Shown here piece by piece: positions 5,533-14,560 of a stretch of DNA of 43,649 bases (within the stretch, counting starts at the first letter, position 1; each line of letters starts with the position of its first letter). This DNA comes from an uncultured Rikenella sp. (GTDB taxonomy: Bacteria > Bacteroidota > Bacteroidia > Bacteroidales > Rikenellaceae). The notes under the pieces were generated by a model that was not told the DNA's origin, searched no databases, and was given only the letters and a program-made list of their open reading frames with translations. Location of the stretch: positions 1 through 43,649 of the forward strand of contig NZ_CANQYJ010000004.1 in NCBI RefSeq assembly GCF_947628055.1, read 5' to 3'. The translations under genes were made by a program, and so were the position numbers.

Positions 5533-7351
5533 GTCCGGCTAAAAGGGGGTAGGTTGTTATCGCGCAACGGCCAGGTTTCGAGTGCCGAACGGCACTGGGC
5601 CTCCGCCGGGGGGCTGCGGCCCGACAAAGAGAGATGGCAGCCAAACAAAATTTTGCCAGCGCGCGGAGCAAGCATGATTGCGGTTTTCGGTTCCAAAAGG
5701 CCGGAGCCAGCGGAGACATTTAGGGTAGTTCCAGCCCGGTTCGTGTGCCGAGCGGCACCCTCCGCCCGGGGTGGCTCCGGCCTGACATAGAGAGATCATA
5801 GCCGAAAAAACCTCTTGGGTGCCGTTAGGCACAGCGGCCCGCCCGCGGACGCGGGAAACTGTTTTCTCCGCACGCGAAAGCCCTCCCGGAAGCGTCTTGT
5901 TTTGCCTTGAGGGGGACGCGCAGGACGCGCGGACACCCGACAAGGCGGAACCGGCTGGAGGTAGTTTCTTTGCTTACTTTCTTTGCTATCAAAGAAAGTA
6001 AGAGCCCCGCCGGCTTGAGGCGACTAAAAAAGTGCCCCCACGGCATGAGCGACAAAGAGAAAAGTCATTCCGCGAAGCGGGCGGCCCTACACAGTGGAGG
6101 AATCCGGTTCGACCGGAATCTCCCTATGTCGGGCCGCAGCCTCCCGCAGCGGAGGCCCGGTGCCGCTCAGCACTCGAGCCGGACCGTAACTACCCCCAAC
6201 TCCGCAGGCTGCACCCCGAAGATGGGTTTTGCCTGCACGCTGGCGAAAATCCGGTTCGCAGAACGGGGCGGGCTGCGACCGAAACTGTACTTTATCCCGC
6301 GCGCTGGAGGAAATCCTGTTCAAAAGCGCAAGCTGCTTTTGAACGATTTCCTACTCCAGCCGTCGCGCGCGGGTGCCGGTGCCGCTGGGTACTCCAGCCG
6401 GGGGATGTTACACCTTAACCGGAGGAAACTGCGCTCCCGCGCGGGGCCGCGTGCCCGCGGTGGGCTTGCAAAACTTCGTTTTGCTATGGTCGGAACTATC
6501 CCGAACAAAACCCGAGCGCCGAGAAAATCGTTCGTTTTCAACTTCCGTTGAAACCGTCGATTTTCTTTTCTCGGCGTAGCGCGCGCAGTGCCGCTCAGCA
6601 CTCGAACCGGGCTGGAACTACCCTAACCCCGCGGGCTGCGACCGAAACTGTATTTGTCCTGCGCGCTGGCGGAAATCCTGTTCAAAAGCGCAAGCTGCTT
6701 TTGAACGATTTCCTACTCTATCCGTCGTGCGCGGGTGCCGGTGCCGCTGGGTACTCCAGCCGGGGGATGTTACACCTTAACCGGAGGAAACTGCGCTCCC
6801 GCGCGGGGCCGCGTGCCCGCGGTGGGCTTGCAAAACTTCGTTTTGCTATGGTCGGAACTATCCCGAACAAAACCCGAGCGCCGAGAAAATCGTTCGTTTT
6901 CAACTTCCGTTGAAACCGTCGATTTTCTTTTCTCGGCGTAGCGCACGCAGTGCCGCTCAGCACTCGAACCGCACCCTTCGGGTGTTCTGCTGGCCTGCCG
7001 GCAGCAAGATAAACTACCCAAAGGAGGAAACTGCCCTCGGGCCGGGCAGGCCGCGCGTGCCCGCGCCGGGCGGGCGATACTACGTATCGCAGGACATTTA
7101 ACCATACGGTTTTCACAAACAGTTTTTGTGCATGCCGCAGCCCCTTCCCGCAAAGACCTGGCGTTGCCCGCACTCGAGGCGGACTGTAACAGCCCGGCAG
7201 CGAAGCCGCTCGGGGGATGGGCGCGAGGCCGAAAACGACAAAGCGAGCAGCCTGACCGTGCTCTCCCAATGTCGGGCGCAGAACCTTCCGCCAGAGAGCC
7301 CCCGGCAGAAGCGGCGGAACAAAGACACGAAGTCCTTACTTTTAGCCGAAC
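5533..7351. repeat. Large non-coding mosaic repeat element (1.8 kb) with terminal inverted repeats
   Basis: I see no credible gene here; the listed ORFs are compositional. The left end reads GTCCGGCTAAAAG and the right end is its inverted counterpart GTTCGGCTAAAAG. Inside are many palindromes. One is a 13-bp perfect stem CTTACTTTCTTTG with a 4-nt loop (about 5971-6000). The recurring AGTGCCG-CGGCACT palindrome module is present, as are two tandem copies of a 362-bp unit (separate entry). Segments recur in the elements at 12993-13560 and 28836-30210. The element starts 3 bp after the DUF4139 stop and ends 7 bp before the first possible start of the macroglobulin gene. Confidence 0.7.
6268..6992 (+). 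repeat. Tandem duplication, two copies of a ~362-bp unit
   Basis: Copy 1 is about 6268-6630 and copy 2 about 6631-6992. From about 6299/6661 onward the offset is a constant 362 bp and nearly every base matches; one indel and a few substitutions lie near the start of the unit, and the match fades after about 6609/6971. Each copy holds a perfect 10-bp stem (GTTCAAAAGC, 7-nt loop) and a longer imperfect hairpin bounded by CGCCGAGAAAA and TTTTCTCGGCG. The first 100 bp recur at about 30011-30115. Confidence 0.85.
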
Positions 7352-13560: not shown

Positions 13561-13575
13561 CGGTCAACGATAGTT

Positions 13576-14361
13576 ATGCACATGATATTAACAATAATAG
13601 TAGCTGCAGGCTCCGGCACCCGCATGGGCGCCGAACAGCCTAAACAATTTTTACCCCTTAGCGGAGAGCCGATTGTGATGCGGACATTGCGGCGAATGAG
13701 CGAAGGAGTGGAAAAGTATTTAACAGATTGTTCACGGAATGTGGACGGAATAGTGGAAAACCGCATGTATGTGGATAACTGTGTTCATAAGTTAATATTA
13801 GTTTTACCTCAGGCCTATATTCCGCTGTGGCGGGAACTGTGCGAAAAACACGCATTTCACCTGCCGCACGAGATAGTTCCCGGCGGTGCGACCCGGTTCC
13901 ATTCCGTGAAAAACGGGCTGGCGGCATATCCCGATGCGGAGATCGTGTTAGTGCACGACGGCGTGCGGCCATTCGTGGACGACGCAGCGATCGCCCGGGT
14001 GATCGCCGGAGCGCATGAATACGGGGCAGCGGTTCCTGCGGTGCCGGTGGTCGATTCGCTGCGGCGGATGACAGGTTCGGACGGGGAAAGCGTGTCGGCA
14101 GACCGGTCGGCTTACCGGGCGGTGCAGACTCCGCAGGGATTTCAGGGGAATCTGCTCCGTGCGGCCTATGCCCGGCCATACGACGAGCGGTTTACGGACG
14201 ACGCGTCGGTGGTGGAGGCTTCGGGCTTGCTGCCGCGAGGAGTGGTGCTGACCGAAGGCAGCCCCGCCAATATCAAAATCACAACTCCGGTGGACTGGGC
14301 CGTGGCAGAAGTTTTGCTGAAAACAGAGTTTCCCGGCGGCGCAGAATTGCCAGTCACGTAA
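13576..14361 (+). CDS. ispD: 2-C-methyl-D-erythritol 4-phosphate cytidylyltransferase
   Basis: 261 residues. It transfers CMP from CTP to MEP in the non-mevalonate isoprenoid pathway. Seen: the N-terminal nucleotide-binding loop IIVAAGSGTRMG with QPKQFLPL, GGATRFHSVKNGL, VLVHDGVRPFV, VQTPQGF, FTDDASVVE and NIKITTPVDWAVAE, all IspD hallmarks. IspD is usually about 225-235 residues. The excess is an insertion at residues 43-72 (13702-13791), between MRTLRRM and LILVLP, where the family has only a short link. The insert is AT-rich compared with its surroundings and carries DnaA-box-like motifs (separate entry), yet it keeps the frame open. A start at ATG 13582 is equally plausible. The last 92 bp of the gene are repeated twice more downstream. 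Confidence 0.93.
   Translation: MHMILTIIVAAGSGTRMGAEQPKQFLPLSGEPIVMRTLRRMSEGVEKYLTDCSRNVDGIVENRMYVDNCVHKLILVLPQAYIPLWRELCEKHAFHLPHEIVPGGATRFHSVKNGLAAYPDAEIVLVHDGVRPFVDDAAIARVIAGAHEYGAAVPAVPVVDSLRRMTGSDGESVSADRSAYRAVQTPQGFQGNLLRAAYARPYDERFTDDASVVEASGLLPRGVVLTEGSPANIKITTPVDWAVAEVLLKTEFPGGAELPVT
13707..13790 (-). other. Cluster of DnaA-box-like motifs inside ispD
   Basis: On the minus strand: TTATCCACA, a perfect consensus box, at 13770-13778; TTTTCCACT at 13707-13715 and again at 13752-13760; CCGTCCACA at 13740-13748; TTATGAACA at 13782-13790. An AT-rich stretch follows (13788-13806). The cluster coincides with the in-frame insertion in IspD. Whether DnaA binds here is inference. Confidence 0.45.
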
Positions 14362-14545
14362 AAATCAAAATCACGACCCCGGCGGATTTGGCAATGGCAG
14401 AAGTTTTGTTGAAAACAGAGTTTCCCGGCGGCGCGAAATTGCCAGTCACGTAAAAATCAAAATCACGACCCCGGCGGACTGGGCCGTGGCAGAAGTTTTG
14501 TTGAAAACAGAGTTTCCCGGCGGCGCAGAATTGCCAGTCACGTAA
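14270..14545 (+). repeat. Three tandem copies of the 92-bp 3' end of ispD
   Basis: The copies are 14270-14361 (the real end of ispD including its TAA), 14362-14453 and 14454-14545. Each ends in GCCAGTCACGTAA. The unit is 92 bp, not a multiple of three, so the extra copies cannot extend the protein in frame. Copies 2 and 3 share substitutions that copy 1 lacks (for example CGACCCCGGCGGA). Confidence 0.9.
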
Positions 14546-14560
14546 AAAAGTTTATATTTG
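14531..14560 (+). promoter_or_regulatory. Promoter for upp
   Basis: TTG (14531-14533), a 19-bp spacer, then a perfect TAnnTTTG box TATATTTG (14553-14560). The TTG lies inside the third copy of the ispD tail. The expected transcription start is near 14567, leaving a leader of about 160 nt before upp. Confidence 0.65.

Follow-up and report, generated by a model that had tools for sequence, protein, structure and literature searches.

A conserved array of predicted DnaA boxes inside the ispD gene of Rikenella with a possible datA/DBC-like role outside oriC

The datA and DARS loci of E. coli are non-coding, and DARS1 and DARS2 reactivate ADP-DnaA. The first of these, datA, is a cluster of DnaA boxes that lies outside oriC but fairly close to it, on a single replichore (PMC4585315, PMC5010248, PMC5295017), and its closeness to oriC matters (PMC5010248, PMC5295017). 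B. subtilis has several DnaA-box clusters (DBCs) outside oriC; together they titrate DnaA, and their position near oriC matters too (PMC5010248, PMC5295017). Additionally, B. subtilis has strong DnaA sites within open reading frames, in rplB and codV, and the intragenic rplB site is bound by DnaA in vitro and unoccupied in vivo (PMC4447404). Since that site stays empty in vivo, caution is due for the intragenic ispD boxes presented here. Our search of the literature found no described DnaA-regulating locus, in the form of a datA or DARS study, in Bacteroidota.

The array in ispD of Rikenella is best read as one of paired non-origin predicted DnaA-binding arrays (datA/DBC-like) in coding sequence, and we give a probability of roughly 0.55 to a conserved predicted DnaA-binding array outside oriC, coding within ispD, with a datA/DBC-like role. 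Like datA, it is a conserved DnaA-box cluster outside oriC, and the two are likened here without any claim of sequence homology. However, datA is about 1 kb long, non-coding and IHF-dependent, whereas the ispD array measures about 215 bp and is mostly coding; its mode of action may be that of a datA/DBC-type cluster, yet as a coding and short array it is not filed as datA. The DBC type consists of several non-origin clusters of common design, and at least two Rikenella arrays, ispD and panB/EamA, share one design. B. subtilis has six DBCs, whereas two arrays were found in Rikenella, with the 12-bp box pair of both inside coding sequence, and titration is what we propose for them. The rplB and codV sites of B. 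subtilis lie in existing genes, while ispD of Rikenella gained a segment consisting largely of boxes. DARS1 and DARS2 are comparable in that they, too, are DnaA-box loci distinct from oriC and adjust the activity of DnaA, which for the ispD array is a proposed role.

The window, a stretch of 43,649 nucleotides, comes from the 2.4-Mb draft genome of an uncultured Rikenella sp. and contains ispD at 13576..14361 on the + strand (261 aa, defined by its reading frame and a Pfam IspD match of 173.5 bits); the gene order ispD-upp is conserved across Rikenella. In comparison with IspDs of related genera and Pfam IspD, the product carries about 23-27 additional residues around positions 45-71, and we place this genus-specific in-frame insert at residues ~48-70 (13717..13785, + strand, with boundaries uncertain by a few codons). 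The original prediction had IspD lengthened by about 25-30 residues through an insertion at residues 43-72; the insertion is there, but part of the extra length is C-terminal and comes from 92-bp repeats. Three repeats of this 92-bp unit stand at the 3' end of ispD (window 14272-14548); they lengthen the IspD C-terminus and leave two partial copies beyond the stop. Elsewhere in the window, a 362-bp direct repeat is found at 6268-6971 (1.9 copies, 97% matches).

The IspD fold, the family match and the conserved columns are retained despite the insert (Pfam, alignment columns, AlphaFold mean pLDDT 90.6 for the whole protein). In the AlphaFold model the insert extends helix 33-50 and continues as a loose loop, predicted to be disordered, with a pLDDT of ~58-61 at residues 51-70 versus the mean of 90.6, and the gene may tolerate the insert because the segment is modelled as a helix extension plus a loose loop. 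A full-length match across the segment is present in 8/8 Rikenella genomes, while the insert is absent from 36 of the 37 readable IspDs of other Bacteroidales genera, a number from which five IspDs (L021, L030, L174, L178 and L189) were excluded as automatic trimming was not possible. The assumption that the site had entered the gene without breaking it agrees with an insert that is in frame, confined to a single genus and compatible with the IspD fold. The one exception among the 37, G019 (L009), belongs to another genus of the same family and has 4-5 extra residues at ispD codons ~43-50; its two readable genus-mates are without extra residues. At the insertion point, the G019 ispD (SVNNYVNN) holds two TTATTAACA sites 12 bp apart, and this segment may either have arisen in parallel or represent a precursor.

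The geometry of the array is one of tandem pairs on the - strand. In the genus alignment, site B (CCGTCCACA, 13740..13748) is 12 bp from site C (TTTTCCACT, 13752..13760), and site D, a perfect DnaA box TTATCCACA (13770..13778), is 12 bp from site E (TTATGAACA, 13782..13790); a weak DnaA-box-like site A (CCGTGAACA, 13729..13737, likewise -) has a core TGAACA common to most species. These boxes are conserved with variation: site B is a perfect TTATCCACA in genomes G003 and G006 and TTATTCACA in G005, site C is TTTTCCACA in G005, TTATCCACG in G007 and TTATCCACC in G002, site D is a perfect TTATCCACA in 5/8 genomes, and site E is box-like in 7/8 genomes, as TTATGAACA or, in three other species, as TTATGCACA or TTGTGCACA. 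In G005, D and E are lost, yet perfect boxes are present at B and C; in G001 the single perfect box at the ispD locus is the one over the start codon. Within the 0.87 Mb sampled from G004, the ispD insert is the sole spot with three TTATNCACA inside 230 bp and ranks first among box clusters by score. All five boxes initially listed are located where they had been reported, including a further TTTTCCACT at 13707..13715 (- strand), which is unconserved in the genus and probably a chance occurrence. They had been described as lying all on one strand, which is correct for these five, all on the - strand, but not for an unlisted box, TTATGCACA at 13574..13582, which lies on the + strand over the ispD start, in the opposite orientation to the insert boxes.

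A second box array is situated between panB and a convergent gene (G000:C20:8628-8886, L031; G001:C2:1629184-1629378, L092), which according to Pfam encodes an EamA transporter. This array is strong in G000, G001, G003 and G006 and weak in G004 and G005; none was seen in G007, where the contig stops ~600 bp beyond panB, and panB was not found in G002. In the four strong arrays the 12-bp box pairs code for the C-terminal tail of EamA (KIVDNVVNN, ETVDNTVDN, ETVDNSVDN or KIVNNSVDN, with NVDNSVHK as the IspD counterpart), and the other boxes are non-coding. The IspD insert and the EamA tail both spell V-[DN]-N-x-V, and the peptide is common to these two unrelated proteins because one DNA motif is read in the same frame in both genes. 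One frame of TGTGGATAA gives a stop and the others V-D-N or W-I, therefore the shared frame is mildly surprising at most.

The strict pair TTRTNCACA-N3-TTRTNCACA has six matches in 61 whole Bacteroidales genomes, all of them in Rikenella (at ispD in G002 and G004, at the panB locus in G000, G001, G003 and G006, and nowhere else), while the reversed pair, taken as a control, has 0 matches in the same 61 genomes. With a looser pair pattern, the 8 Rikenella genomes gave 18 matches, of which 10 fall at ispD or panB/EamA, and both loci were matched in G000, G003 and G006; most of the matches off the two loci contain TTATTAACA. In the sampled DNA of G004 and G001 (1.57 Mb), 12-bp pairs occur at the ispD and panB loci only. 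Two more small DnaA-box-like groups were seen at G004:C1:2356424-2356639 and in G001:C2 near 1139964. To hypothesize further, and tentatively, it is quite possible that Rikenella controls DnaA via two coding sites (ispD and panB/EamA), and that the 12-bp tandem boxes, not protein function, dictate V-[DN]-N-x-V in both proteins.

The insert sits within a transcribed gene, which calls for caution with the favoured reading. DnaA bound over the start codon and within the initial 215 bp of the gene could repress or time ispD transcription and so couple the supply of the isoprenoid/cell-wall carrier to replication, with titration being secondary. The TTATGCACA box over the start codon, which is invariant in 8/8 Rikenella genomes with both non-coding T included, brackets the 5' part of ispD together with the insert boxes and leaves local control of ispD a serious rival, the more so as DnaA is a known transcription factor acting at several loci (PMC4447404). 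However, the 12-bp design recurs where panB and EamA converge with their 3' ends, a position from which promoter control of either gene would not be expected, and most boxes are intragenic and not promoter-located, so that we consider such control, on balance, unlikely to be the main function.

An old origin fragment of plasmid, phage or chromosomal provenance could also have been inserted in the Rikenella ancestor and be neutral today, which is consistent with the genus-specific rise of the insert and with the different strength of the boxes among the species' copies. We regard this as improbable, since the boxes outlast the drift of neighbouring codons and are replaced upon loss. In the Rikenella alignment, box-like sites are kept or re-created at homologous positions while the peptide, poorly conserved and varying by ~18 codons in length, drifts around them, and the pattern named in advance as contrary to the original prediction, the peptide without the boxes, is absent. 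The other Rikenella IspDs are 64-72% identical to that of the window, and outside the insert 49% of comparable ispD codons are identical between species; therefore recent ancestry alone fails to account for the boxes.

Constraint at the codon level can be seen from a shuffle test in which synonymous codons were permuted inside each ispD, with the protein and the codon usage preserved (4000 shuffles). In the pooled test on seven genomes (one member of a closely similar species pair was dropped), which are related and not fully independent, the box score was 28 versus 8.7 ± 2.5 in the shuffles, with a shuffled maximum of 20 and 0/4000 reaching the observed value; the claimed cluster is therefore real as a pooled excess, although without the first TTTTCCACT. 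Exact TTATNCACA boxes numbered 9 in the same pool, versus 1.3 in the shuffles. For single genomes, P was below 0.02 in six and non-significant in the window's species (P 0.21) and in G001 (P 0.41). Among permuted 9-mer motifs, 0/150 matched the observed box excess, and the remaining 650-700 bp of each ispD contain 0 or 1 box. The IspD insertion is best explained by selection on DNA.

The opposite option, that selection acts on the peptide loop, whose codons happen to create the boxes, is very improbable. V-D-N-x-V-H-K in the insert is fairly conserved, and the window's own sequence is unremarkable given its protein, as the above P value for its species indicates. Nevertheless, the pooled codon shuffles and the permuted-motif control argue against it, as does the drift of the loop in length and sequence, and the predicted order of the loop is low. 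In G005, V-D-N-x-V-H-K is gone and sites B and C are perfect boxes instead, and the motif recurs in an unrelated protein beside non-coding boxes.

Genome-wide GC skew was computed on 20-kb stretches sampled from two near-complete genomes, G004 and G001. Over most of the interval from ~0.35 to 1.85 Mb of G004 it is negative, and from there round to 0.3 Mb it is largely positive; in G001 the skew is weaker, with a switch at ~1.1-1.35 Mb. In these genomes rpsU lies at 1.841 Mb (G004) and 1.184 Mb (G001). The DNA upstream of rpsU (L163-L166, from G004, G005, G000 and G001) is AT-rich and non-coding, with scattered DnaA boxes. A TTATCAACGCCATTCACAACCATT-type core is conserved in this AT-rich region, which we infer to be the candidate oriC of Rikenella. 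The array is separate from this skew-defined origin: ispD lies at 2.206 Mb in G004 and 1.413 Mb in G001, the distance from the rpsU region being 366 kb and 228 kb, respectively, or ~0.08 and 0.13 of the genome (G001/G004 only, two genomes), and the order candidate oriC, ispD, panB on the same arm is common to both.

The view that a titration site is more plausible here than oriC, already part of the original prediction, is supported by the genome-wide skew and the conserved AT-rich region before rpsU, which place oriC elsewhere. The local excess of G to the left and of C to the right, noticed by eye at that time, is real, but it is a gene-scale signal, and it is the genome-wide skew that is relevant to oriC. 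The AT-rich stretch then reported beside the boxes is unconserved (within the genus, the 40 bp that follow the insert have an AT content of 30-50%); the insert itself is 44-62% AT within genes of 35-42% AT. An origin at ispD can hence be dismissed as extremely unlikely, for although it has several DnaA boxes in one orientation and the densest TTATNCACA cluster of G004, the skew switch and the rpsU region with its AT-rich upstream DNA lie 228-366 kb off, and no conserved AT-rich unwinding region adjoins the insert across the genus. The panB cluster, considered as oriC for its box density, was ruled out as well, since panB is found at 2.336 Mb in G004 and the skew minimum is 0.5 Mb away. As an origin marker dnaA was unusable, because its position in G004, 0.774 Mb, is not near the skew minimum. 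Domain IV of DnaA is present, with its helix-turn-helix signature GGKNHATV.

Under the favoured reading of a datA/DBC-like array, we infer that a head-to-tail DnaA oligomer would form on the tandem boxes D/E and B/C, which share one orientation at a 12-bp spacing, and that DnaA would also occupy the oppositely oriented box over the start codon. As ispD lies on one arm, ~0.08-0.13 of the genome from oriC, it would be duplicated early after initiation, so that each initiation would create new DnaA sinks, free (ATP-)DnaA would fall by titration or inactivation, and re-initiation would be delayed, in the manner proposed for datA and the DBCs of B. subtilis. The ispD array would work together with that of panB, whose 12-bp pair is located in the EamA tail, and the enzyme would tolerate the ispD array because in the protein it amounts to a disordered loop. 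In the end, these results serve as a caution that conserved loop peptides may be misread as protein motifs, and for Rikenella they yield two candidate DnaA-regulating sites together with a candidate oriC before rpsU.
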